NCBI RefSeq assembly: GCF_007827275.1
Contig: NZ_VISE01000001.1
Location: 1,488,001-1,552,000, forward strand
DNA length: 64,000 bases
Reading direction: 5' to 3'
Source: Gillisia sp. Hel_I_86
GTDB lineage: Bacteria > Bacteroidota > Bacteroidia > Flavobacteriales > Flavobacteriaceae
Below the pieces are notes generated by a model. That model had not been told where the DNA came from and did no database searches. It was given only the letters and a program-made list of their open reading frames with translations. The translations under genes were made by a program, and so were the position numbers. Of this stretch, positions 7,255-29,443 are shown in pieces; within the stretch, counting starts at the first letter, position 1; every line of letters starts with the position of its first letter.

Positions 7255-7650
7255 TTATAAGAAAGATTTTGCCTCATTGATTTTCTGAATAATATTAAAG
7301 GAGAAGGTTTTGCTCTCCTCTTGGATATACTCAAAAATAGCTACTGCTGAAGCTGCTAAATGAGATTCGTGTTGCTCATCTTCAAAAGGAATGATTTTTA
7401 AAAGAAAATCCCCAAATTGCTCCAGATTGGAAAAATCGAAATCCAGCTCTTTTAATTTTACCAGCAATTCTTCAGAAGACCAACTTTCAAGATCTGAAAT
7501 TTTAAAACCCAAATGCTCAAATAAGAGTCCGTTTGCCTTGGAACGCTGTTCAGTTTCATAAAATTCAGGAACAAATTCCAAGTCGATCAACCTACCCACA
7601 AGCTCGTTGATCTTCTGATTTTCTTCGTCTCTTAAACCTTTGCTAAGCAT
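7255..7650 (-). CDS. Conserved-type hypothetical protein inside the hem operon
   Basis: This 131-residue acidic, soluble protein starts at an ATG (7650) six bases after hemE and ends six bases before hemF, so it is co-transcribed with both. I do not recognise a domain. The composition (many Glu, Leu, Phe and Lys, no signal peptide, no Cys cluster) suggests a small all-helical cytoplasmic protein. The C-terminal part reads like amphipathic helices (AIFEYIQEESKTF, NIIQKINEAK). Context suggests a link to tetrapyrrole synthesis, for instance handling of uro- or coproporphyrinogen between HemE and HemF, but that is only inference. Confidence 0.75.
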   Translation of the reverse strand: MLSKGLRDEENQKINELVGRLIDLEFVPEFYETEQRSKANGLLFEHLGFKISDLESWSSEELLVKLKELDFDFSNLEQFGDFLLKIIPFEDEQHESHLAASAVAIFEYIQEESKTFSFNIIQKINEAKSFL

Positions 7651-7656
7651 TACGGG

Positions 7657-8682
7657 TTATTTTGAATATTCTTTAACTGCATCTATAAAAGCACGTGCAT
7701 TTTCTACGGGAATATCTGGTAGAATTCCGTGACCTAAGTTCACGATATATTTATCTTTTCCGAATTCATCGATCATTTGGTGAACCATTTTTTTGATCTC
7801 GGCAGGTGGCGAATACAATCTTGAAGGATCAAAATTTCCTTGTAACGTAATGTTTCCGCCCGTTAAATAACGCGCATTTCGTGGAGAACATGTCCAGTCT
7901 ATTCCTAAAGCAGAAGCCCCGGATTTTGACATTTCATCCAATGCGAACCAACAACCTTTTCCAAAAGCGATAACCGGAACTTCATCTTTTAGGGCATCTA
8001 TAATTTGTTGCATATATCGCCATGAAAAGATTTGATAATCTGTTGGGGACAACATTCCTCCCCAAGAATCGAATATTTGTACTGCATCTACGCCCGCAGC
8101 AACTTTAGCTTTAAGATATGCGATGGTAGTATCGGTGATTTTTTGAAGCAAAGTATGCGCAGCAGCTGGATTGGTAAAACAGAATTTCTTTGCGATATCA
8201 AAATTCTTGGAACCTTGTCCTTGTACCGTGTAGCACAAAATGGTCCATGGAGAACCGGCAAACCCTATCAAAGGGACCTCATCGTTCAAGGCTTGTTTGG
8301 TCATTTTAATGGCATCCATCACGTAACCTAACTCTTCATGTACATTAGGAACATAAACTTTCTCCACATCTTTGCTGGTTCTCACGGGATTTGGCAACCA
8401 AGGTCCCACACCTGGTCTCATTTCCACCTTGATGTTCATTGCCTGAGGGATCACCAAAATATCGCTAAATAATATGGCTGCATCTGGTCCAACTTGATTT
8501 ATAGGCATTATGGTGATTTCTGTAGCCAGTTCTGGGGTTCTGCAACGTGTGAAGAAATCGTGTTTTTCCTTCAATTTCATGAAATCCGGTAAATACCTTC
8601 CTGCCTGGCGCATCATCCACACTGGTGGCCTGTCTACGGTTTCACCCTTTAATGCTCTTAAAAATAAGTCGTTCTTGATCAT
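7657..8682 (-). CDS. hemE: Uroporphyrinogen decarboxylase
   Basis: HemE removes the four acetate carboxyls of uroporphyrinogen III to form coproporphyrinogen III. The N-terminal signature [15 protein letters not shown] at about residues 18-32 and the central [13 protein letters not shown] motif are intact, and 341 residues is the usual length. Its ATG at 8682 overlaps the hemD stop (8679-8681) by the ATGA-type arrangement, indicating translational coupling with hemD. Confidence 0.98.
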
Positions 8683-9341
8683 TTCTTATATTTTTTAACT
8701 GCCTGTACGATCACATTTTCAATACTAGGCTTATTTGCTATAACTATATGTTGTGTATGTTTTTTAGCTTCAGCTGCGGTGGTTTCCCCAATGCAAAATG
8801 CGGTGCTCGAATTTAAACTATTTTTCTGGCAAAAGCTTTGCACTCCACTGGGACTAAAAAATAAAACCCCTTCAAAAGTACGGTTGAATTTTTTGGGATT
8901 TAAGGTTGTTTTATATACCACCAATTCTTTAATAGAAAAATTTTCTGCTTTCAAAATCTTGGATAGTTCCTCCCTGCGCATGGAACCGCAAATATGAAGG
9001 AATTCTTTTTCTTTAAAATCCTTTACGATCAAGTTTGCCAACTCTTCGCCATAATCTGCTGAAGCAATTACACTATAGCCTTCTTTTTCAATTTGAGCCT
9101 TGGTCTTTTCACCAACACAAAAAATGTTGAGATCGCGGGTTTGGAATTCCGGATATTGCGTAAAAAAACCTTTTACTCCGTTCTGGCTGGTAAAGATGAG
9201 GTTTCTGGGTATAGGTGCATCCAATGAAGAATTATCGAATTCAATAGTAATCGCATTGTATTCCACAAGTCCAATTCCTGAATTAAGAAGTAATTGTTTC
9301 TGGGGTGTTGTTAGAATTTTGGTGGAAAGTAAGGTAGCCAT
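8679..9341 (-). CDS. hemD: Uroporphyrinogen-III synthase
   Basis: HemD closes hydroxymethylbilane with inversion of ring D to yield uroporphyrinogen III. The family is poorly conserved; recognition rests on [10 protein letters not shown] near residue 50, the [11 protein letters not shown] region near 155-166, [11 protein letters not shown] near 180 and its place between hemC and hemE. At 220 residues it is slightly short but within the range for the family. The start at 9341 follows the hemC stop by five bases. Confidence 0.9.
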
Positions 9342-9346
9342 GTTAT

Positions 9347-10258
9347 TTAATTCAGGACTTTTTTAATTTCTTCCATTAAAACACTTCCTCCATTATTAAG
9401 TACTTTTAACGCACATTCTTTCCCAAAGTTAGGGGCGTCTTTTATGGCGATCTTTCTTTCCACGGAAATTTTTTTCTTTCCATCCAAACTGAATAAAGCT
9501 CCCTTAAAAGTGATTTCGTTCCCTTCAATAGTAGCTAAAGCGCCAATGGGAGCAGTACATCCACCTTCCAGAACCTGTAGGAAATCACGTTCTATATGTA
9601 CACAAATTTCAGATTCTCTATGATTCAATGCTTTTAAAACCTCTCTCGTCCCGCTGTCTTTTTCCATAGCAACCACTAACATGGCGCCTTGAGCAGGAGC
9701 AGGAAGCATCCAGTCCAGATCTAAGGAATTCTCCGGTGTCAAATTGATGCGCTCTAGTCCGGCAGCGGCAAATATCGCTCCGTTCCAATCGCTATCCTTT
9801 AGCTTTTGCATTCTGGTATTTACATTTCCACGAAGATCTACGCAGGTATGGGAGGGATATTTATTTAGCCATTGGGCTTTCCTTCTTAAACTTCCGGTGG
9901 CAATAACCCCTCCTGCATCTAAAAAATCCAATCCTTTATGAATGAGTACGTCTATTGAATTTGCCCTTTTTAATACCGCAGCCTCAACAATTCCCTTTGG
10001 AAGCGCTGTTGGCACGTCTTTCATGGAGTGCACGGCAACATCTATTTTCCCTGTTAACATGGCAATGTCCAAGGTCTTGGTAAAAATACCTGTAATGCCC
10101 ATTTCATATAAAGGTTGGTCCAGGTTTAAATCTCCAGTGGATTTTACGGGAAGTAATTCGGTTTTATGGCCTAGATTTTCCAATGCAGCTTGTACGGTCT
10201 TCGCCTGCCAAAGTGCAAGTTCACTATCGCGGGTGCCAATTCTAATAACTTTGTTCAT
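9347..10258 (-). CDS. hemC: Hydroxymethylbilane synthase (porphobilinogen deaminase)
   Basis: HemC polymerises four porphobilinogens into hydroxymethylbilane on a dipyrromethane cofactor. The cofactor cysteine is C234 in LEGGCTAPIG, and the catalytic Asp is D81 in HSMKDVP. The N-terminal RIGTRDSELALWQ and the TGSLRRKAQ substrate-binding motif at 121-129 are present. The 303-residue length is standard. Its ATG overlaps the hemA stop by one base (TAATG), so the two are translationally coupled. Confidence 0.98.
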   Translation of the reverse strand: MNKVIRIGTRDSELALWQAKTVQAALENLGHKTELLPVKSTGDLNLDQPLYEMGITGIFTKTLDIAMLTGKIDVAVHSMKDVPTALPKGIVEAAVLKRANSIDVLIHKGLDFLDAGGVIATGSLRRKAQWLNKYPSHTCVDLRGNVNTRMQKLKDSDWNGAIFAAAGLERINLTPENSLDLDWMLPAPAQGAMLVVAMEKDSGTREVLKALNHRESEICVHIERDFLQVLEGGCTAPIGALATIEGNEITFKGALFSLDGKKKISVERKIAIKDAPNFGKECALKVLNNGGSVLMEEIKKVLN

Positions 10259-11511
10259 TACATGGAATCTTCCAGTTGAAATACCTTTTGGATAAGTTCC
10301 AAACTTTCATCTGAGGTGTTAGAATCATCTTTAAGGTGATTGGCAAAATGATTCATTATTTTTTGAATAATCCTATTGCTTACAATCTCTGCTTGCTCGC
10401 TATTGAAATCGGTGATTTTCTTGCTTTGGAAATCCAATTCGGCATCTTTCATCGTTTTCAGCTTTTTCTTTAACGCTTTAATGGTAGGTGCAAATTTTCG
10501 CATTTCCAGCCATTTTATGAAATCTCCTTCAACCTCCTTGATGATCTCTTGTGCCTGCGGAATAAATTCCTTCCTTTTTTCCAAGGTAGCATCGGTCATT
10601 TGGGAAAGTTGGTCTAAATGAATTAAAGTTACATTTTCCATTCCCACAACATCATCGGCAACATTTTTGGGAATAGAAAGATCGAGGATCAACAACTGCT
10701 TTTTCGCATAGATCAATTCCTTGGAAATGGTTGGGTTTTGGGCGCCAGTCGCAACCACTAAAATATCGGCCTGACGAATTTCCGATTGTAGATCGGCGTA
10801 ATCTTTTACCCTTAAATTGAATTTTCCTGCGATTTTTTCAGCCTTGTCCTTGGTTCTATTAATAAGGGTAATATGACTGTTCTTGGTGTGCTTTACCAAA
10901 TTCTCACAGGTGTTCCTTCCAATTTTTCCTGTTCCGAACAAAAGAATATTCTTATCGGTAACATTTTCAACTTCATTTAAAATATACTGAACAGAAGCAA
11001 AACTAACCGAAGTAGCTCCCGATGAAAGCTGGGTTTCGTTTTTAATACGCTTGCTCGCCTGAATTACAGAATTTATTAATCGTTCCAAGAACGGATTGGC
11101 AACACCCACTTTCTTAGAGGCGATAAATGCAAGTTTAAGCTGGCTTATAATTTCGAAATCCCCAAGAATCTGACTATCCAAACCGGTTCCCACTATAAAC
11201 ATATGGGATATGGCTTCACGGTTCTTGTAAACAAACGCTACTTTTTCGAATTCCTCCACGGTACCATGAGTGTGTTCGCAAAGCAATTTAATTAACTGAT
11301 ATGGATGTTGGGCAAACCCGTAAATTTCTGTACGGTTACAGGTAGAAGTAACTATTAAGCCATCTATGCCTTCAATTTTTGCCTGGTTCAGCAAATTTAT
11401 TTTTCCTTCTTCAGTAAGGCTAAAGTGGCCCCTAATATCGGCGTCGGCTTTTTTGTAGCTTAATCCTATGGTATAAAAATGTTTCCCTCTGGAGATGTGA
11501 TATTTTTCCAT
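10258..11511 (-). CDS. hemA: Glutamyl-tRNA reductase
   Basis: HemA reduces glutamyl-tRNA(Glu) to glutamate-1-semialdehyde with NADPH, the entry step of the C5 pathway. The nucleophilic cysteine is C58 in TSTCNRTEIYG. The NADPH-binding motif LLFGTGKIG lies near residue 200, followed by a helical dimerisation tail. The 417-residue length is normal. It is the first gene of the operon hemA-C-D-E-unknown-F and is divergent from the AraC-type regulator. A -7 box candidate (TACCTTTG on the minus strand) lies at 11535-11542, about 24 bases before the ATG. Confidence 0.97.
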   Translation of the reverse strand: MEKYHISRGKHFYTIGLSYKKADADIRGHFSLTEEGKINLLNQAKIEGIDGLIVTSTCNRTEIYGFAQHPYQLIKLLCEHTHGTVEEFEKVAFVYKNREAISHMFIVGTGLDSQILGDFEIISQLKLAFIASKKVGVANPFLERLINSVIQASKRIKNETQLSSGATSVSFASVQYILNEVENVTDKNILLFGTGKIGRNTCENLVKHTKNSHITLINRTKDKAEKIAGKFNLRVKDYADLQSEIRQADILVVATGAQNPTISKELIYAKKQLLILDLSIPKNVADDVVGMENVTLIHLDQLSQMTDATLEKRKEFIPQAQEIIKEVEGDFIKWLEMRKFAPTIKALKKKLKTMKDAELDFQSKKITDFNSEQAEIVSNRIIQKIMNHFANHLKDDSNTSDESLELIQKVFQLEDSM

Positions 11512-11534
11512 GAACCTATTTAGGTGTTCAGGAA

Positions 11535-11542
11535 CAAAGGTA
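11535..11542 (-). promoter_or_regulatory. Candidate -7 box for the hemA operon
   Basis: The minus strand reads TACCTTTG, a full match to the Bacteroidota -7 consensus TAnnTTTG, 24 bases before the hemA ATG. No TTG lies at the usual 17-23 base spacing upstream; the nearest, at 11571-11573, is 28 bases away, so the assignment rests on the -7 box and position alone. Confidence 0.45.
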
Positions 11543-11637
11543 ATTGATTGGTATTTTAAAAAGTAACGCTCAAAGTACTAAATGTGTCGTTTGATGGGAT
11601 TTATGATAAGAACATCCTTAAATTAAGTGAAATGCAC

Positions 11638-11645
11638 TAAATTTG
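11638..11645 (+). promoter_or_regulatory. Candidate -7 box for the AraC-type regulator
   Basis: The sequence TAAATTTG matches TAnnTTTG and lies 55 bases before the regulator's ATG. No -33 TTG was found at standard spacing. It shares the 188 bp divergent region with the hemA promoter, so a factor bound here could affect both directions. Confidence 0.4.
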
Positions 11646-11699
11646 CAGTGATTTCAAATGCTTAGGTCAAATTAATTTAGACTGATTCTAAATAAAAAA

Positions 11700-12617
11700 A
11701 TGAAAATCAAAATGAATTCTGAAGAAAAAAACGTCGCTGGAGGGTTTGTGGATGAGACTAAAATTGAAGATGGATTCTTCCTGTTAAAGTTTCAAAATGA
11801 AGAAATTAAGCAACAAAGAATCACCAGGGAAATAGACAGCAGTTATATTCAATTTCATTTTTGTGTGAAAGGTGAAGGGAAATTTTTATTCAATAACAGC
11901 AGCTATGAATTACCGTTAAAAGAAGAATATTCGTTGCTTTTATACAATCCGCAGCAAGATTTGCCTTTAAATTTGGATTTACATGCAAAGTCGTGGCTTA
12001 TCTCGATGGTGATCTCCATTAAAAAATTTCATTCCATGTTCTCGCAGGAAGCGGGTTATATTCCTTTTTTAAGTTCTGAAAATAGCGACAAAAAATATTA
12101 CAAGGATGGTGAAATTACCCCTTCTATGGCAATTGTCCTCAATCAGTTGATGAACTTCAATTTGATGCCCTCCATTAAATCCCTGTATTTTAAAGCCAAA
12201 GCCTACGAATTGTTGAGTTTGTACTTTAATAGATCTGGCGATAACAACGTGGAGCAATGTCCGTTCTTGGTAGATGAAGACAATGTGATGAAAATCAGGA
12301 GAGCGAAAGACATCGTGATAGCCCATATGGCAGAGCCCCCTTCGCTTCAGGATCTTGCTACAGAGATCGGTTTGAGTTTAAAAAAACTGAAGGAAGGTTT
12401 CAAACAAATTTATGGAGATTCTGTTTATAGTTTTTTGTTCGACTATAAAATGGAATTTGCCCGAAAACTATTGGATTCTGGGGAGTTTAATGTGAATGAA
12501 GTTGGTCTGAAAGTAGGGTATAGCACGGCGAGCCATTTTATTGCGGCCTTTAAAAAGAAATTTGGAACTACTCCAAAGAAGTATGTGATGTCCTTGACGT
12601 TGCCAAACAATTCTTAA
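11700..12617 (+). CDS. AraC-family transcriptional regulator
   Basis: This 305-residue protein has an N-terminal sensing half (about 1-190) and a C-terminal AraC DNA-binding domain (about 200-300) with two helix-turn-helix units: SLQDLATEIGLSLKKLKEGF and VNEVGLKVGYSTASHFIAAF, closing with KKKFGTTPKKY. The layout resembles PchR-like regulators of iron and siderophore genes. It lies between divergent hemA and co-directional hemH, so control of heme synthesis is a reasonable inference, but the ligand cannot be read from the sequence. Confidence 0.88.
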   Translation: MKIKMNSEEKNVAGGFVDETKIEDGFFLLKFQNEEIKQQRITREIDSSYIQFHFCVKGEGKFLFNNSSYELPLKEEYSLLLYNPQQDLPLNLDLHAKSWLISMVISIKKFHSMFSQEAGYIPFLSSENSDKKYYKDGEITPSMAIVLNQLMNFNLMPSIKSLYFKAKAYELLSLYFNRSGDNNVEQCPFLVDEDNVMKIRRAKDIVIAHMAEPPSLQDLATEIGLSLKKLKEGFKQIYGDSVYSFLFDYKMEFARKLLDSGEFNVNEVGLKVGYSTASHFIAAFKKKFGTTPKKYVMSLTLPNNS

Positions 12618-12728
12618 TGTATTGATTTTATTAATAATCCAATTGAGCTAATCTTAGTTTAAACGCAATTTTAAAATATTTATAATCGTATTTTTAAATT
12701 CTGAAAAATTGCTGAAAAAGAAAAGAGA

Positions 12729-13763
12729 ATGAGTAAAGGTGTACTCTTGGTAAATCTGGGTTCTCCGGATAGTACCGACCCAAAAGATGTAAAAAAATAT
12801 TTAGGGGAATTTTTAATGGACGAGCGGGTGATCGATGTTCCCCTTTGGGCGCGAACAATTTTGGTCAAGGGAATTGTTTTAAATACACGCCCAAAACAAT
12901 CTGCCGCAGCCTATAAAAAGATTTGGTGGGATGAGGGTTCTCCTCTTATTGTCCTCTCTGAAAGGTTAAGAGATAAGATAGATGAAAACACCTCTGTGCC
13001 CATTGTTTTGGCAATGCGCTATGGTACTCCAAATATAAAATCGGGTTTACAGGAATTGCATGACCAAGGAGTAGATGAGGTGCTAATTTTTCCGCTCTAT
13101 CCCCAGTTCGCGATGGCTACTACCGAAACTATTTTAGTGTTGGCAGAAGAATTGAGACAAGGATTTTTTCCGAAAATGCAATTCACTTCTATTCCGGCTT
13201 TTTACAATCATCCAGATTACATTAGGGTTTTGGCCAATAGTATTCAGGAGAAGTTAAAAGATGTTGAATATCAGCATATTTTATTTTCTTATCATGGACT
13301 GCCTGAAAGACATATTCGAAAAAGCGATATCACTAAATCCCATTGCCAAATAGATGGCAGTTGTTGCAACACAGCATCTGAAGCACATCAATTCTGCTAT
13401 AGGCATCAGTGTTTTGAAACGACTAGGTTGGTAGCAGAATATCTTCAATTAAAAGAAAATACCTATAGTGTTTCATTTCAATCCAGGCTTGGTTTCGATC
13501 CTTGGTTGCAACCTTATACAGATAGGACCATCGAACGGTTTGGAAAACAAGGCATGAAAAACCTGGCAATCGTAACTCCCGCTTTTGTGAGTGATTGTTT
13601 AGAAACCTTGGAAGAGATTGCCATGGAAGGGGAAGAGATCTTTCACGAAGTTGGAGGAGAAAAATTTACGGTTGTCCCTTGCTTGAATACTCGGGAAGAT
13701 TGGGTAGAAGTGCTTTCCAGATGGGTAGACGAATGGGCTCTTGCTAAAGAGGTAGAGGCATAA
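12729..13763 (+). CDS. hemH: Ferrochelatase
   Basis: HemH inserts ferrous iron into protoporphyrin IX. The metal-handling histidine is H189 in SYHGLPERH. The 344-residue length is normal. A cysteine-rich stretch at 206-228 holds Cys at 206, 212, 213, 223 and 228; internal cysteines of this kind bind a [2Fe-2S] cluster in some bacterial ferrochelatases (reported for Myxococcus), so a cluster is possible here. The stop overlaps the start of the MATE gene by one base (TAATG). Confidence 0.96.
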   Translation: MSKGVLLVNLGSPDSTDPKDVKKYLGEFLMDERVIDVPLWARTILVKGIVLNTRPKQSAAAYKKIWWDEGSPLIVLSERLRDKIDENTSVPIVLAMRYGTPNIKSGLQELHDQGVDEVLIFPLYPQFAMATTETILVLAEELRQGFFPKMQFTSIPAFYNHPDYIRVLANSIQEKLKDVEYQHILFSYHGLPERHIRKSDITKSHCQIDGSCCNTASEAHQFCYRHQCFETTRLVAEYLQLKENTYSVSFQSRLGFDPWLQPYTDRTIERFGKQGMKNLAIVTPAFVSDCLETLEEIAMEGEEIFHEVGGEKFTVVPCLNTREDWVEVLSRWVDEWALAKEVEA

Positions 13764-22968: not shown

Positions 22969-24363
22969 TTACTTTCCCGTAACCCTAATATTATCAATAT
23001 CATAAGTGGTTGTTTTATCTGGTGCCGCCCCGAGATATTTAAATGCCACATGTACAGTCCCTTCCAAACAAGAAACATCAATTTTGGAGTTTTTGAAGTT
23101 TTTACCAAACTGGCTGGTTGGCCCAACAGGGATCTTGGCATCCAAAAGTTGCCATTCTGTAGTAAGTGGATTTCCTGTAAAACCTGTTGTAATAAGCACA
23201 GATAGCAACACCCCATTATCGTAAGAAGATTTCAAATCAAAACTCAGCACTTCATTAATGGAGTTGTTAAAATTAATTCCAGGAGTTATCAGCCAAGCTT
23301 CCAAAGGATTTTCTGAAGTCTCATATGCCGAAATCCTAATATACCGATCGCTATTCAAGATCCCATCTTCAAAACGCTCGTTTCCCCCATTTACGTTTAC
23401 GTTGGTCCATCCCCGGCCATCCAAAATATTCTCATTACTCACTCCAACAAAATTCTCCTGAAATAATACTTTTGAGCCTTCTGTTTCATTTTCGCCGCAT
23501 TTCAAAAAGGCTGGATCGCATCTGGCATCAGCTTCAAATTGAAGGTCTTCTGGAGAATTAAGAATTACCACAAATTGATCATCGTAAAAATTTCGGGTTA
23601 AAACTCCTTCAATGTTTCCTGATAATTGAGGCAACAACAAAGATTTAAAATCTGAAAAGGTGCTAGTGCTCAAAAAACTTGTGCTGCCAGTTGTACAGCT
23701 CTCTATTTGTCGTTCCCCATCGAATCTATCGGTTACCTCAGCAGCAAATGTAAATCGCTTCTCCTCTCTTACCAGATTTCTATTGAATTGCACCCTTTCC
23801 AAACGTACATACAGGTTTCTATAGGCTTCAGAAAAATCCTTTATATCCAGCGGTAGTGGTTCTATTTCTGAAGAAATTCCAGACCTCATAATATGCTCAT
23901 CTATTAAAGATGCTGGAATTGCAACGACATCTCCTCTATTCTGAATTCCCAGTTGAAATACGCCATTGTTAAACCATAAACTCAATCCGTCCAACTTTAT
24001 ATAAATTTTCCTACCAAATTCATACGTTGAAAATAAGGAGGTATTATCCACCAAAATTTGAATTCCTGAAGAAGGATTGGCAGCCCGATCTTGTATGATG
24101 AGTTTCTTGTAAAAATTCCCAGCCTCATCACTGGAAATCACATAGCCTTCAATAAAATCCTCTGTATTTTGAAAGGTATATATCTCACCCGTTGTAGGGT
24201 TATAATTGCCTTTTATGCCTGAAATACTGGTCAGATTCCCATCGAAACCATCATCAACTTCCGTGGTTTTAGGCACTTCAAAATCATCGGTTTTTACGCA
24301 AGCATTCATTAAAAAGACTAAAAATAATAGCCCTACCAACTCAATAATTTTAAATCTCTTCAT
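22969..24363 (-). CDS. DUF5689-type surface lipoprotein
   Basis: This is a 464-residue lipoprotein. I chose the ATG at 24363, since it gives a clean lipoprotein signal with C22 in VFLMNAC. The N-terminal half (about 40-270, with GYVISSDEAGNFYKKLIIQD) matches the DUF5689 style of OB-fold-like domains found with secreted nucleases in Bacteroidota. The C-terminal part (about 300-464), with AWLITPGINF and a DIDNIRV end, resembles a choice-of-anchor J domain. It begins 20 bases after the TonB receptor gene, forming a two-gene operon. A role in capturing substrate for the receptor is inferred from this pairing. Confidence 0.85.
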   Translation of the reverse strand: MKRFKIIELVGLLFLVFLMNACVKTDDFEVPKTTEVDDGFDGNLTSISGIKGNYNPTTGEIYTFQNTEDFIEGYVISSDEAGNFYKKLIIQDRAANPSSGIQILVDNTSLFSTYEFGRKIYIKLDGLSLWFNNGVFQLGIQNRGDVVAIPASLIDEHIMRSGISSEIEPLPLDIKDFSEAYRNLYVRLERVQFNRNLVREEKRFTFAAEVTDRFDGERQIESCTTGSTSFLSTSTFSDFKSLLLPQLSGNIEGVLTRNFYDDQFVVILNSPEDLQFEADARCDPAFLKCGENETEGSKVLFQENFVGVSNENILDGRGWTNVNVNGGNERFEDGILNSDRYIRISAYETSENPLEAWLITPGINFNNSINEVLSFDLKSSYDNGVLLSVLITTGFTGNPLTTEWQLLDAKIPVGPTSQFGKNFKNSKIDVSCLEGTVHVAFKYLGAAPDKTTTYDIDNIRVTGK

Positions 24364-24383
24364 CTTCTTTCCATTTATATTTT

Positions 24384-27194
24384 TCAAAATCTTATATATA
24401 CATTCCCATAATAGGAAGCTCCCGTTCCATACCAATATTTAGATCCAAATACTGGTTGTTCCCGATCCCTATCTGCCTTAAGGGTTCTAAAATTTGCATT
24501 TCGAGATTGCTCGAAACCTCCGGTTTTATACAATTCGTCCAAAATATTGTTGATGCTCACAAAAAATCCTATATAATAATTTTTTATTCGCCAAGATTTT
24601 CCGCCCACGGTGTTCAATAAAAAATAATCGTCAAATTGTTCTTGTTTTAAGAGGTCTCGTGCCATATTCTCGTCATAATTTAAAAGTGGCAAGCCATCAG
24701 AATCTGTCGCAAAATTGCTGGTCCTAGCAAGCGGACTCACATCTGCAAAAGCATGGGAAAAATAATTGAGCGTCGTGCCAAACCACCAGAAATCGGGATC
24801 ACGATATTCAAATCCTATTTGTGCGGCTCGTTGCGGGCCACCCGCGATCCTGTAATTTTTTAAATTCGATTCCCCATAATCTTGGGCTTCAATAAAATCG
24901 TCGGAGGTAAGTTTTAAGTTGGGATTGTTGTTATAGGTGAATTGTCCCATGGCAACAGCTGTTTTCAACTTTAAAGTGGAGGTTACTTGCGCCTCGGCTC
25001 CCATTTCTAAACCAAGGTGTTGTTTATCTATACCTGTTAATATCTCCTGTACAAAAGCTGTGGTGCTATTTCTTCCCAAACCAGAAAGCCCATCGGCATA
25101 ATAAAAGGAGATTTCGGTGGCATTGTTGATCTGGGTAAAATATCCCGTAAGCCTAGCTTTTAAAAAGGAACTTCGAAAAATGTAACTGGCATCCCCAGAA
25201 TAAATACGTTCGCTGTTTATCCCCTCTACTACATTGTTGTTTTGCCTCGAATTAGAAAACGAATTTTTAAGAGCGGGAGCCTTTGTGAAATAGCCCGCGT
25301 TAAATTCCAACAAATGCTTCCCGGTAATTTTCCATACAGTCCCGGCCTTTGCCCCATAATCTGTAAAGTCTAGCGCTTTACTTTTTCCAAATGAACTTTC
25401 CGGGAAATTTCCGTTTTTATATAATCCTTCACGCTGGTAATTGGTTTGAGATAAACTGAAGGCTGCATAAGAATCCCACTTTTCGGTCCTAATCAATGCA
25501 TTTATAAATGCTTCAGCAGAAGCTGCTTTCCACTTAAAATTGTATTTAAATCGTTCTCCTAATTTGGCGATCCTATTTGGGTTCAAAAGATCACTTTGTG
25601 CCTTGTCCCCTTCAGAAAAGAAATCTACATCCAGATATCCCGTTCCGCCTAAAAGGTCATTTACTTCAGCATAATTTTCGCTATTTAGATTGGAAAACTT
25701 TAGCTTGGCGGTTAGCATTAATGAGGAATTGATATTCGCAGTTAAAATTGAATTTACATTTAACAGCTTGTCTTCCACTTTATCTTCAGCGCTTACATAA
25801 ATTGAATTTCCACCATTGTTTAGGGAAGAACTATTGGCTTTATATAGCTCCCGCCAATCGATTTGTCCATTCTGTTGAAAATCCTTTTGAGCCCGATAGG
25901 CCGCTTCAAAATTCTGATTGTCAAAAAACCTCAAAAAATAACTAGGTAGTTTTTGATAGTAGGAGGGATCTGGGTTGCTCCCGCCACCTACAAAACTTTG
26001 TTGTCCATCTGTTTGGGTCACCAAACGGGTTCCACCAAAATCCAAACGAGTATTTCCAATCGATCCAAATTGGTAGGCCACATTATTGTTTATTTTTAAT
26101 TTTTCTGAAAGTTTCCAGAAATGGTTCAGCATTAAAATGGGCTCTTTTACTTCCTTGATCCTGCTATTCCTGATCTCCCCATTCTGAATGCCCCAAAATG
26201 AATTATATTTCCTGCCTTTTAGATCGTAAACCTCCTGAGTGTTTGCTGAAGATTTCCCTCGAATATTTGGAGTATAAAATCCCGTGAAATTTATGCTATG
26301 TGCATTGTTCAATTTTTTTTCTGCTGAAATAAAAAAAGAGTTTGCATCGTATAAAGTGCCTTCCACATAAGCCTCTTTGGCAAATCTTCTTGCTAAACCC
26401 AAGGCATACCACCAGCCCCCAGGCTTTTCCCCAGAGCTATACGTTGCCATAAGCCTCCCAGAATAACTTCTATTTGCAGACGCATAGGAAAGTTTGCCAT
26501 TTTTCGCATACTGGGATGCACGCATTATGATATTGGTGTTTCCCGCCAAATTCCCAAAGGTGGTTTCCCCAGGAACCAAAGCATTGGCAAAAACCTGATT
26601 CCGCTGCAGGTCATTTAATCCTCCCCAATTGCTCCATTGTGGCCTTCCATCGAAGAACTTGTTCATCTCCACTCCGTTGATAGAAACAGTTCCATATTCA
26701 CTTCCCAATCCGCGTGGCTTGAAGAAAGTTTGGCTGAAATCGAAGGCTGCTGCATTTAGAAACACATCGCGGGTTGCGTAAAGTAATCCAGTAATATTAT
26801 CGGTCTCCCCTTGATCTTCATTTAACTCAGATTCTGACAAACTTATGGTCGCCAATTGAACTTGCTCTTTCATAAAATCGGGTTGCAATGGGATTAATTC
26901 TAAGCTTTTAGCTGTTCCGCCAACTAGATTTACAGAAATTCTTAGTAGTATATATCCTGCTTTTGAAACTTCCAAGATATAAGAACCACTTTCCAAGGAA
27001 CTATCGGCAAATGCAAAACTCCCATCTTGTCCTGAAGTTTTTATATAGGCAGTTCCCTCCAATTTCAGGCGAGCCCCTGCAATAGGATCATTAGACAAGG
27101 CGTCCACTACGGAACCTGTAAGGGCGGTATTTTGAGCAGAAATCTTGAGGATGCCAAGAAGCATCAGAAATAATAAAAGCTTTCTGCCTTTCAT
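24384..27194 (-). CDS. TonB-dependent outer membrane receptor
   Basis: This 936-residue receptor imports a ligand across the outer membrane using TonB energy. From the ATG at 27194 there is a signal peptide (KLLLFLMLLGILKISAQ), a carboxypeptidase-like regulatory domain at about 24-105 (GSVVDALSNDPIAGARL), then a plug and a long beta-barrel with many aromatic strands, ending in an aromatic-rich YGNVYIRF. It is not of the SusC length or type. It is paired with the DUF5689 lipoprotein downstream and divergent from a secreted nuclease-fold protein, which suggests nucleic acid or phosphate-ester uptake. Confidence 0.9.
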   Translation of the reverse strand: MKGRKLLLFLMLLGILKISAQNTALTGSVVDALSNDPIAGARLKLEGTAYIKTSGQDGSFAFADSSLESGSYILEVSKAGYILLRISVNLVGGTAKSLELIPLQPDFMKEQVQLATISLSESELNEDQGETDNITGLLYATRDVFLNAAAFDFSQTFFKPRGLGSEYGTVSINGVEMNKFFDGRPQWSNWGGLNDLQRNQVFANALVPGETTFGNLAGNTNIIMRASQYAKNGKLSYASANRSYSGRLMATYSSGEKPGGWWYALGLARRFAKEAYVEGTLYDANSFFISAEKKLNNAHSINFTGFYTPNIRGKSSANTQEVYDLKGRKYNSFWGIQNGEIRNSRIKEVKEPILMLNHFWKLSEKLKINNNVAYQFGSIGNTRLDFGGTRLVTQTDGQQSFVGGGSNPDPSYYQKLPSYFLRFFDNQNFEAAYRAQKDFQQNGQIDWRELYKANSSSLNNGGNSIYVSAEDKVEDKLLNVNSILTANINSSLMLTAKLKFSNLNSENYAEVNDLLGGTGYLDVDFFSEGDKAQSDLLNPNRIAKLGERFKYNFKWKAASAEAFINALIRTEKWDSYAAFSLSQTNYQREGLYKNGNFPESSFGKSKALDFTDYGAKAGTVWKITGKHLLEFNAGYFTKAPALKNSFSNSRQNNNVVEGINSERIYSGDASYIFRSSFLKARLTGYFTQINNATEISFYYADGLSGLGRNSTTAFVQEILTGIDKQHLGLEMGAEAQVTSTLKLKTAVAMGQFTYNNNPNLKLTSDDFIEAQDYGESNLKNYRIAGGPQRAAQIGFEYRDPDFWWFGTTLNYFSHAFADVSPLARTSNFATDSDGLPLLNYDENMARDLLKQEQFDDYFLLNTVGGKSWRIKNYYIGFFVSINNILDELYKTGGFEQSRNANFRTLKADRDREQPVFGSKYWYGTGASYYGNVYIRF

Positions 27195-27290
27195 TATAAA
27201 CAACTCAATTTCAGCATTTAAGATACTATTTTTATTAAATCGAACTAATAAAAAATGTAAATTCACTAATAATTTAACTTTTAGCCATTA

Positions 27291-28370
27291 ATGATACAGA
27301 CTACTAGTAATTGTATAAATTTGAAAACAATTGTAATTTTTCTGATTGCAGTTGTTTTAATTACAGATAGTTCCTTGGCTCAGGAAAGAAAAGATTACAA
27401 TATCTATACTATTGCGTTTTACAATGTTGAAAACCTTTTTGACACCGAAGATGATCCCTTAACATTCGATGATGACAGGACTCCTCTAGGAAAAGATGTT
27501 TGGACCCAGGAAAAATACGAGGATAAAATAAAGAACATCGCTAGGGTGATCTCCGAAATTGGCGTTGCTAATTCCAAAACATCTCCTGCCATTATTGGTT
27601 TATGCGAGATCGAAAATCTGCGGGTTTTAGAAGATCTGGTCAGCCATCCCTTTTTAGAAAAATTCAACTATCAAATAATACATTATGATTCTCCAGATAT
27701 GCGTGGCATAGATGTCGCGCTGTTATATCAAAAATCATTATTTATTCCAGATGAGTCCCAATCCAGAAGGTTGCTATTATATGATCTGGATGAACCTACA
27801 AAAAGGATATTTACCAGGGATCAGTTGGTAGTTTCCGGCAAACTTAATGGAGAGCAAATTAATATAATCGTGAATCATTGGCCATCCAGAAGTGGAGGAG
27901 AAGCAAAAACCAATTATAGAAGGGAAAAAGCTGCTTACCTAAACAAACAGATCATGGATTCGCTTTATAAAAAAGATCCATTCGCCAAAATCCTAAGCAT
28001 GGGCGATTTTAATGACGATCCAACCGATAAGAGCTTTAAAAAAATTTTAAAAACCAACAATAACCGGAAAACCATCATGGCTCAAGAGCTATTCAACCCT
28101 ATGGAAAGCATGGTAAAGCAAGGTAAAGGTTCTTTGGCCTATAGGGATAGTTGGAATTTATTCGACCAAATTTTGGTTTCGGAATCTCTATTGGGTAGCC
28201 CTAACGGACTTCAGTTTTACCAAGCTGGAATATTTAACTCACATTATCTCATTACCCAGAATGGGCAATACCGTGGGTATCCTTTTAGAAGCTATGATTA
28301 CAGTGGGTACACAGGAGGGTTTTCAGATCATTTTCCAGTGTTTGTATATTTGGTTTCCATCTCGAATTAA
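27291..28370 (+). CDS. Secreted endonuclease/exonuclease/phosphatase-family protein
   Basis: This 359-residue protein has an N-terminal signal peptide (hydrophobic 11-30, cut near LAQE) and an EEP (DNase I-like) fold: FYNVENLFDTEDDP near residue 43, NHWPSRSGGEA near 199, MGDFNDDPTD near 240 and the C-terminal SDHFPVFVY, which gives the catalytic Asn, Asp and His set. It should cleave phosphodiester or phosphomonoester bonds outside the cell. It is divergent from the receptor-DUF5689 pair and overlaps the end of the radical SAM gene by four bases. Confidence 0.9.
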   Translation: MIQTTSNCINLKTIVIFLIAVVLITDSSLAQERKDYNIYTIAFYNVENLFDTEDDPLTFDDDRTPLGKDVWTQEKYEDKIKNIARVISEIGVANSKTSPAIIGLCEIENLRVLEDLVSHPFLEKFNYQIIHYDSPDMRGIDVALLYQKSLFIPDESQSRRLLLYDLDEPTKRIFTRDQLVVSGKLNGEQINIIVNHWPSRSGGEAKTNYRREKAAYLNKQIMDSLYKKDPFAKILSMGDFNDDPTDKSFKKILKTNNNRKTIMAQELFNPMESMVKQGKGSLAYRDSWNLFDQILVSESLLGSPNGLQFYQAGIFNSHYLITQNGQYRGYPFRSYDYSGYTGGFSDHFPVFVYLVSISN

Positions 28371-29443
28371 AACAGCTTCATTTGCCCATCCTTATATTGC
28401 TCATGAAGTTCACAATTAAGTTTTGGCATCGCCCTGCCCGATAAATACTTTTTTCGAGCGATCTTGAATTGCTGTGATACCTGTTCTGCTATATTGCCGG
28501 AACCTTTCATTCGTCTACCAAACTCGCTATCGTTCAAATTCCCCCCATGGCATTCAGCAATTTGATGCAATACTTTTTCTGCCCTATCCGGCATTGCTTT
28601 TTTAATCCAATCTGTAAATATTCCTCCGATCGCTCCGTTCAAACGAACTATGGTATATCCAACTCCTAAGGCGCCGTTTTCAGCAATGGTTTTTACAAGT
28701 GGAATAATTTCATGACTATTAATTCCCGGAATAATGGGAGCCATCATTACATTTACAGGAATATCATTTGAGGCTAATAGGTTAAGGGTTTCCAATCTTT
28801 TTTTGATAGTTGCTGTTCTTGGTTCCAAGAGCCTTCGAGTTTCTTCATTTAAAGAGGTGATGGAAAGATGTACTTGGACTAAATTGTCTTTTGCCAATTC
28901 CTTCAATAAATCCAAATCCCGAAGCACCAAGGAGTTTTTGGTGATTATCCCCACTGGATGTTTGAATTTCAAGAACGTTTTAAGAAGTTGTCTGGTAATC
29001 TCCAATTTCTTTTCGATAGGCTGATAGCAATCTGTATTTCCCGATAATACAATTGGAGCCGCCTTCCATCTTGGACTTTGTAGTTTTTTTGCCAGAAGTT
29101 CTACCGAATTTCTTTTTACCAGAATTTTTTGTTCAAAATCCAATCCGGCGCCAAAGCCCCAATATTCGTGGGAATTTCTTGCATAACAATAGATACAACC
29201 ATGTTCACACCCTTGATACGGATTTAAAGAATAGCCCATTCCAACATCTGGGCTCATCACTTTATTCACGATCGTTTTTGGAAAAGTATCTATGAGGACT
29301 GTTTTGGAATTGGTTGCTTCATCTCCTTCAACAGCACAATAATTAAGAAAATCTGAGCGTAGCTCGTGACTATGCGCATCAAATTTGTTCGAAACATTTA
29401 ATTGAGCACCTCTTCCCTTTATATATTCCTTTTCAAAAGCCAT
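28367..29443 (-). CDS. PA0069/Rv2578c-like radical SAM protein
   Basis: This 358-residue protein has the radical SAM iron-sulfur motif CxxxCxxC in GCEHGCIYCYARN (C79, C83, C86). The N-terminal SPDVGMGYSLNPYQGCEHG and the middle PVNVMMAPIIPGIN are typical of the spore photolyase-related group annotated PA0069. The reaction is unknown. It is monocistronic, facing the nuclease gene and ending within its stop region. Confidence 0.92.
   Translation of the reverse strand: MAFEKEYIKGRGAQLNVSNKFDAHSHELRSDFLNYCAVEGDEATNSKTVLIDTFPKTIVNKVMSPDVGMGYSLNPYQGCEHGCIYCYARNSHEYWGFGAGLDFEQKILVKRNSVELLAKKLQSPRWKAAPIVLSGNTDCYQPIEKKLEITRQLLKTFLKFKHPVGIITKNSLVLRDLDLLKELAKDNLVQVHLSITSLNEETRRLLEPRTATIKKRLETLNLLASNDIPVNVMMAPIIPGINSHEIIPLVKTIAENGALGVGYTIVRLNGAIGGIFTDWIKKAMPDRAEKVLHQIAECHGGNLNDSEFGRRMKGSGNIAEQVSQQFKIARKKYLSGRAMPKLNCELHEQYKDGQMKLF

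Follow-up and report, generated by a model that had tools for sequence, protein, structure and literature searches.

A Gillisia locus of a TonB-dependent transporter, a DUF5689 lipoprotein and an exported EEP enzyme as a probable DNA-uptake module

We analyzed a window of 64,000 nucleotides from the genome of Gillisia sp. Hel_I_86 (contig NZ_VISE01000001.1, positions 1,488,001 to 1,552,000), a single contig of 4.25 Mb, in which a locus for three envelope proteins is arranged around a short divergent region. On the minus strand, the gene for a TonB-dependent outer-membrane transporter (nucleotides 24384 to 27194; 936 amino acids including the start methionine) is followed, after a gap of 20 bases, by the gene for a surface lipoprotein composed of a DUF5689 region and a choice-of-anchor-J domain (22969 to 24363; 464 amino acids), an order consistent with a single operon. 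The gene for an exported enzyme of the EEP fold (Exo_endo_phos_3; 27291 to 28370; 359 amino acids) lies on the plus strand. The divergent intergenic region between transporter and enzyme measures 96 bp (27195 to 27290) and presumably holds the promoters. The most likely start codons are ATG at 27194 for the transporter, rather than GTG at 27266, and ATG at 24363 for the lipoprotein, rather than the TTG at 24435 that opens the longest open reading frame. An initial annotation, made from the sequence alone, had described an operon of the first two genes divergent from an exported EEP gene, and all three genes are confirmed in that arrangement.

The transporter belongs to a divergent sequence family. 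Pfam recognizes only CarboxypepD_reg-type domains in it (PF13620, 33.9 bits against a cut-off of 32.3), and neither the plug model PF07715 nor the barrel model PF00593 is matched at E ≤ 0.001. A phmmer search found no relatives of solved structure, and a profile search matched the N-terminal domain only. An AlphaFold2 model built from 20 sequences (mean pLDDT 71), by comparison, matches solved TonB-dependent transporters across residues 112 to 935, the best match having a Z score of 25.8 and a deviation of 3.2 Å over 479 aligned residues. Because of this fold match, the label of TonB-dependent receptor given by the initial annotation is kept despite the missing Pfam matches, and the assignment of a plug and beta-barrel fold stands at the level of the predicted model. 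In Chryseobacterium angstadtii, the transporter gene is split into two frames (locus L175, 9926 to 12872) and may be broken or misassembled.

The lipoprotein matches DUF5689 (PF18942) with 176 bits, its sole Pfam match at E ≤ 0.001, with the SusD-like models PF07980 and PF14322 not found, and it matches NF038128 with 75.6 bits. It also aligns over its full length (residues 10 to 461) with NF052645, the M949_1556 family lipoprotein, at 226 bits. Because the curated cut-off of that model is 475 bits, and a Riemerella-like lipoprotein (locus L093) reaches 599 bits, the window protein is by sequence a distant relative of this subfamily that stands outside it. The lipobox cysteine Cys22 shows no variation in 30 of 30 aligned lipoproteins, and neither do D26 and P31. 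Acidic residues directly behind the lipid-bearing cysteine are the surface-export signal for lipoproteins of this phylum. Sequence searches for solved relatives gave weak chance matches only. In fold searches with the predicted model (pLDDT 79.6), all results were taken up by the C-terminal domain, so that the matches cover residues 294 to 464 only; these resemble a carbohydrate-binding domain of chondroitinase (Z 15.8) and the cleaved-adhesin domains of gingipains (Z 15.2).

This C-terminal half is swapped between close relatives. We compared 60 DUF5689 lipoproteins of loci L126 to L189, proteins outside 400 to 520 amino acids being excluded, and 121 of the 490 pairs with an N-terminal identity of at least 60% have a C-terminal identity below 30%. 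Linking the C-terminal halves at 35% yields groups of 42, 8, 7, 2 and 1. The variable half may be a part for recognition or adhesion. At three loci (L102, L122 and L123), two tandem DUF5689 lipoprotein genes lie behind the transporter gene.

The third protein is assigned to PF19580 with 384.5 bits, against a gathering cut-off of 27, and bears an N-terminal signal peptide as judged by eye. Only EEP domains are detected by Pfam; the Endonuclease_NS fold PF01223, that of pneumococcal EndA, was not found. The score for the ExeM/NucH model NF033681 is 28.7 bits, below the curated cut-off of 300 bits. Among solved structures, phmmer found no relatives and a profile search gave one chance match. In 22 of 22 aligned proteins, N45/E47, E106/E108/N109, H131, D136-R138-G139-D141, R176-D177, N195-H196, D239/N241 and S345-D346-H347 are invariant, in keeping with the intact catalytic residues noted earlier; which of them are catalytic we assume from the EEP fold.

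The transporter and lipoprotein have counterparts with a known phenotype. In a study that screened transposon mutants of Riemerella anatipestifer for loss of natural transformation, the markerless deletion of either RA0C_RS04915 or RA0C_RS04920 is reported to reduce transformation below the detection limit of 4.2e-10 (PMC8459023). RS04915 is described as a PF13620 outer-membrane protein and RS04920 as a protein with DUF5689 and DUF5017, encoded in a predicted operon, and the authors suggest RS04920 as the DNA-binding protein and RS04915 as the carrier (PMC8459023). The same report calls the pair widespread and mostly adjacent in Flavobacteriaceae. As in Riemerella, a PF13620 outer-membrane protein gene in the window is directly followed by that of a DUF5689 lipoprotein, here with a choice-of-anchor-J C terminus. 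The two organisms belong to different families of the same order, identity is low, and of the two only R. anatipestifer is known to be competent. Over the length of the proteins, the window and the Riemerella-like locus L093 (genome G200) share 31% identity for the transporter (residues 1 to 935), 28% for the lipoprotein (residues 12 to 459) and 40% for the EEP enzyme (residues 11 to 354). Judged by sequence, the window pair is a distant relative of the known Riemerella uptake pair.

The Riemerella-like locus also places an EEP gene divergently upstream of the transporter, as in the window. Its order is comEC, two genes, EEP, transporter and DUF5689, which, if numbered in fives, fits RA0C_RS04895 to RS04920. 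R. anatipestifer CCUG25054 (L126) has the same order, with identities to L093 of 94% for ComEC, 99% for the carboxyltransferase, 94% for the EEP enzyme, 93% for the transporter and 90% for the DUF5689 protein. Because this order fits the published numbering, RA0C_RS04910 is read here as the putative EEP gene and thus as the counterpart of the window enzyme. RS04910 appears once only in the main text of the screen paper, as an upstream gene with unchanged transcription, and is not among the entries of its markerless-mutant table (PMC8459023).

Because deletion of the matching Riemerella genes abolishes transformation, we consider it probable that the locus as a whole is the outer-membrane DNA-uptake module of natural transformation. 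The DUF5689 lipoprotein would bind extracellular DNA at the surface, seated like a lid atop the barrel, and the TonB-powered barrel would pass the DNA into the periplasm. ComEC, encoded elsewhere in the genome, would then take one of the two strands into the cytoplasm. By nicking or degrading DNA, at the cell surface or within the periplasm, the exported EEP enzyme would supply ends for entry or remove the strand that is not translocated, a step that ComEC of this class seems unable to carry out. We infer direct contact of the DNA with lipoprotein and barrel, TonB as the direct energy source of the barrel, a nuclease activity of the EEP enzyme in one of these places, and competence of the Gillisia strain itself. 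Mutants of tonBA and tonBB are reported to have a decreased transformation frequency in R. anatipestifer (PMC8383284). The initial annotation had proposed acquisition of extracellular nucleic acid or phosphate esters; its scheme of capture, cutting and import of nucleic acid is favored here, and its phosphate-ester alternative is not, since the matching Riemerella genes are needed for natural transformation.

The proposal that the EEP enzyme belongs to this module was examined in an evenly drawn sample of 149 Bacteroidia genomes, 29 of which contain a strong transporter match (E < 1e-90); the lack of a transporter in the others is less certain, since no more than five candidates were scored in each genome. 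In 22 of the 29, an EEP gene lies within 5 kb of the transporter gene (upstream and divergent in 14, downstream on the opposite strand in 5, and on the same strand upstream in 2 and downstream in 1), whereas random placement in a 3.7-Mb genome would lead one to expect about 0.15. A search with the Riemerella transporter gave 64 loci, mostly from Chryseobacterium and its kin and so not independent of each other, at which the EEP gene is divergent within 1 kb in 61 and 6 kb away in one; at the remaining two the contig starts within the transporter gene, and an EEP gene was not found there.

In a tree of 64 EEP proteins (midpoint rooted, bootstrap not fully settled), one branch with support 99/94 sets apart 31 rows, made up of 24 linked and 7 unlinked proteins. 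These seven come from G062, G095, G132, G063, G072, G021 and G096, which are exactly the transporter genomes that have no adjacent EEP gene. Outside the branch are the 23 EEP proteins whose genomes have no strong transporter match, together with 10 extra copies from transporter genomes that were retrieved separately from the locus. In these counts, the second EEP protein of L114 is linked by distance, that of L204 is unlinked because its neighboring transporter is of another type, and G018 and G046 are taken as lacking the transporter despite weak partial matches (6.9e-25 and 1.5e-31); the tree omits the EEP proteins of L105 and L221, the former masked in the open reading frame filter by a longer frame on the opposite strand. 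Because the group holds the EEP proteins of transporter genomes only, whether linked or not, one EEP subgroup travels with the transporter in this sample even where the genes are separated.

This co-inheritance bears on the alternative that the EEP enzyme is a neighbor with a role of its own, such as breakdown of biofilm DNA or envelope upkeep, the uptake module consisting of transporter and lipoprotein only. The wider distribution of PF19580, present in 84 of the 149 genomes compared with 29 for the strong transporter match, and the lack of linkage in 7 of 29 would fit such a role. Because linkage persists through rearrangement, and because this EEP group accompanies the transporter also in genomes where the two are unlinked, we consider this alternative quite improbable. 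Literature searches found no paper that names an EEP gene as a transformation gene or as a third member of the locus; the conserved, co-inherited EEP gene thus seems to be new, and to fill a gap left by the published model. At one locus (L204 in genome G044, about 7,449 to 13,033), the partners of a divergent EEP gene are another type of TonB-dependent receptor and a lipoprotein in which no DUF5689 region is evident; this is perhaps a parallel system for another substrate.

The gap concerns the conversion of double- to single-stranded DNA, for which the 2021 model paper invokes "a yet unknown mechanism" (PMC8459023). ComEC as a rule has a metallo-beta-lactamase domain, which degrades the strand that does not enter the cell; in pneumococcus this domain is thought to be inactive and EndA takes over its task, and Helicobacter pylori is described as lacking both the domain and EndA, so other solutions exist (PMC12455585). 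A ComEC match is present in 145 of the 149 genomes, and 71 ComEC frames were inspected, 30 from transporter genomes (G200 included) and 41 from others, partly best-scoring loci and partly picked; the frames of G039 and G096 stop at a contig end. The zinc motif H-x-[HDGSN]-x-D-H of the lactamase domain, present in Escherichia coli YcaI, occurs in none of the 71 (0 of 30 with the transporter, 0 of 41 without), the ComEC frame of the Gillisia genome (contig 1, 1955583 to 1956389; L230) among them. Similarly, PF00753 scores 83.8 bits in YcaI and is absent at E ≤ 1 from the ComEC proteins of Gillisia and L093. This absence was not found in print in our literature searches. By analogy, a separate enzyme may make the single strand in Bacteroidia. 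The absence of the motif throughout the 71 frames justifies the search for another nuclease and is no proof for the EEP enzyme.

The role that we propose for the EEP enzyme would be the one held by EndA, that of a separate nuclease making single strands because ComEC cannot. The two differ, the window protein being an exported PF19580 enzyme of the EEP fold, in contrast to the PF01223 fold of EndA, and not known to be membrane-bound. That the EEP enzyme is specifically the strand-making nuclease we judge a little less probable than its contrary. The Gillisia genome encodes ComEC, DprA and a PF07075 (DUF1343) protein, of which ComEC and DprA are widespread and carry little information. Its comEC lies about 440 kb from the locus, whereas three genes separate comEC from the transporter gene at L093. 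Linkage to comEC as a general feature was rejected, since among the 64 loci a ComEC match (E ≤ 1e-15 to the L093 protein) occurs in L126 only. A genome without a strong transporter match (L198 in G018) has an EEP gene about 5 kb from its ComEC gene.

Other enzymes of related types recur at the locus. Nine further gene families lie within five genes of the transporter in at least three of the loci compared, with at least one member of each annotated, and four of the nine are nuclease- or phosphodiesterase-like. They comprise a PF01223 DNA/RNA non-specific endonuclease (annotated at L112 and L115, assigned by clustering at L114), an EEP-type protein sorted by the type IX secretion system (T9SS; annotated at L102 and L109, by clustering at L100 and L107), a T9SS protein similar in its central part to the N-terminal region of the ExeM model (at L103; family in 8 loci, a second tested member at L116 showing the T9SS tail only), and a T9SS PLD-like protein (at L108; family in 3 loci), PLD enzymes being possibly active on lipids as well. 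The other five families (an alpha/beta hydrolase, PdxJ, a Gfo/Idh/MocA oxidoreductase, a deoxyhypusine-synthase-like protein and one that is unclear) were taken as ordinary. No phosphatase, nucleosidase or SusD-type protein is among the nine families, rarer families being mostly unannotated. The extra nuclease-type genes of these relatives were not found in print in our literature searches. L112 also carries a second DUF5689 protein.

A second DUF5689 region in the Gillisia genome lies in one frame with LTD, EEP and T9SS domains (contig 1, 3706644 to 3708002; L002). It was missed by hmmscan of the whole protein, was found by a genome search with the Pfam model, and scores 40.5 bits on the cut-out region. 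This large protein, with the order LTD-DUF5689-EEP-T9SS, weakly matches NF033681 and is probably a separate extracellular nuclease. ExeM/NucH nucleases share the EEP domain with the window enzyme, and in the L002 protein a DUF5689 region adjoins an EEP domain; the window enzyme, by contrast, consists of EEP domains alone, and its partners are separate proteins.

The same protein classes would serve a nutritional system, in which the locus obtains phosphate or nucleosides from DNA, RNA or phosphate esters outside the cell, and Riemerella is transformed as a side effect of importing DNA fragments as food. Import through TonB-dependent transporters generally serves nutrition, and the nuclease-type genes added in relatives would suit such a function. 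An outer-membrane barrel, a surface lipoprotein and an exported hydrolase also occur together in SusCD and PusCD systems (PMC8115612). Those systems differ from the window locus, where the lipoprotein combines DUF5689 with choice-of-anchor J and matches no SusD model, and where the barrel matches neither PF00593 nor PF07715.

Published phosphate data point in several directions. In Flavobacterium johnsoniae, the orphan PF13620 transporter Fjoh_3841, a possible orthologue of the window transporter, is strongly induced by phosphate starvation, which speaks for scavenging (PMC8115612). The phosphate-starvation table of that study, in the part consulted, names no DUF5689 gene; its sole EEP gene, Fjoh_0074, changes little (1.15), and two other extracellular nucleases, Fjoh_4721 and Fjoh_4723, rise, which speaks against scavenging by this locus (PMC8115612). 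Removal of phosphate is reported to raise transformation in R. columbina, as a nutritional function would suggest, and to lower it in R. anatipestifer (PMC8383284), which argues the other way. Because the effect is opposite in these two species, there is no consistent phosphate signal, and the F. johnsoniae and Riemerella data neither support nor exclude nutritional use. Given that deletion of either Riemerella gene abolishes transformation, and that no phosphatase, nucleosidase or SusD-type protein is among the nine recurrent families, we regard phosphate scavenging as unlikely, and as a weaker rival than uptake of transforming DNA.

A related alternative is that the transporter and lipoprotein import another ligand needed for competence, for example a metal complex or a peptide, that the EEP enzyme acts on lipids or other phosphodiesters, and that the transformation defect is indirect. 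Peptone, iron and phosphate are all reported to affect transformation, and the tonB mutants are discussed in terms of nutrient effects (PMC8383284). The window barrel, as modeled, resembles siderophore and cobalamin transporters, and EEP folds include lipid enzymes. On the other side, the Riemerella defect is complete, below the 4.2e-10 limit, whereas the tonB mutants are described as transforming at a lowered frequency; other nuclease families are found repeatedly at the locus; and DUF5689 and an EEP domain share one frame in the L002 protein. We hold this alternative to be very unlikely.

Several observations nonetheless weigh against the locus being a transformation module. The DNA-binding, transport and nuclease roles of all three proteins are predicted; the best structural matches of the transporter are the siderophore and cobalamin transporters; and EEP-fold and PLD-like enzymes have a wide range of phosphodiester substrates, lipids among them. 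A DUF5689 profile built here from 30 lipoproteins makes no clear bridge to the L002 protein (best domain 1.7 bits). The EEP gene is not adjacent to the transporter in 7 of the 29 genomes, and the ComEC motif is missing in 41 of 41 genomes without the transporter, so its absence does not single out the locus. Furthermore, the 3000-insertion Riemerella screen did not recover the EEP gene (PMC8459023). By our own arithmetic, a 1.2-kb gene in 2.16 Mb would escape such a screen with a chance of about 1 in 5, and RS04920, although needed, was reached there only via a polar effect (PMC8459023). The authors who studied the tonB mutants explain the tonBB effect by iron and, for tonBA, suspect that nutrient transport is the cause (PMC8383284). 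Finally, F. johnsoniae is reported to have homologues of the Riemerella genes and yet not to be transformable under the conditions tried (PMC8459023); presence of the locus is thus no proof of competence.

If the locus does serve uptake of transforming DNA, it would bear on how such DNA crosses the outer membrane of Bacteroidota and how it becomes single-stranded, since it ties two needed genes to a third. A bolder proposal is that Bacteroidia have a three-part machine of their own, in which the secretin and pilus give way to a TonB-dependent barrel with a DUF5689 lid, and the lactamase domain of ComEC to a dedicated EEP nuclease; we offer it tentatively and consider it rather doubtful. Which DNA such a machine accepts may be set by the interchangeable C-terminal domain of its lid. 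The locus further suggests, for many Bacteroidia, an uptake route derived from a nutrient-type transporter, which would be relevant to gene flow, including that of resistance genes, in a large phylum.

The surroundings of the locus look ordinary. An HflX-type GTPase gene lies on one side and a PA0069-family radical SAM gene (28367 to 29443) on the other, the latter convergent with the EEP gene, their ends overlapping by four bases. A scan for sigma-70 consensus sites between 21500 and 29500 found 36, compared with 24.9 (standard deviation 5.5) in shuffled sequences, and is uninformative for the 96-bp gap; a terminator scan found 4, compared with 7.2, and was not used as evidence. Among the 8- to 12-mers of the 64-kb window, none is enriched enough to suggest a DNA uptake sequence. 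The same search brought up repeated words in the L093 stretch, which are probably a CRISPR array because a large Cas9-like gene lies in that stretch.

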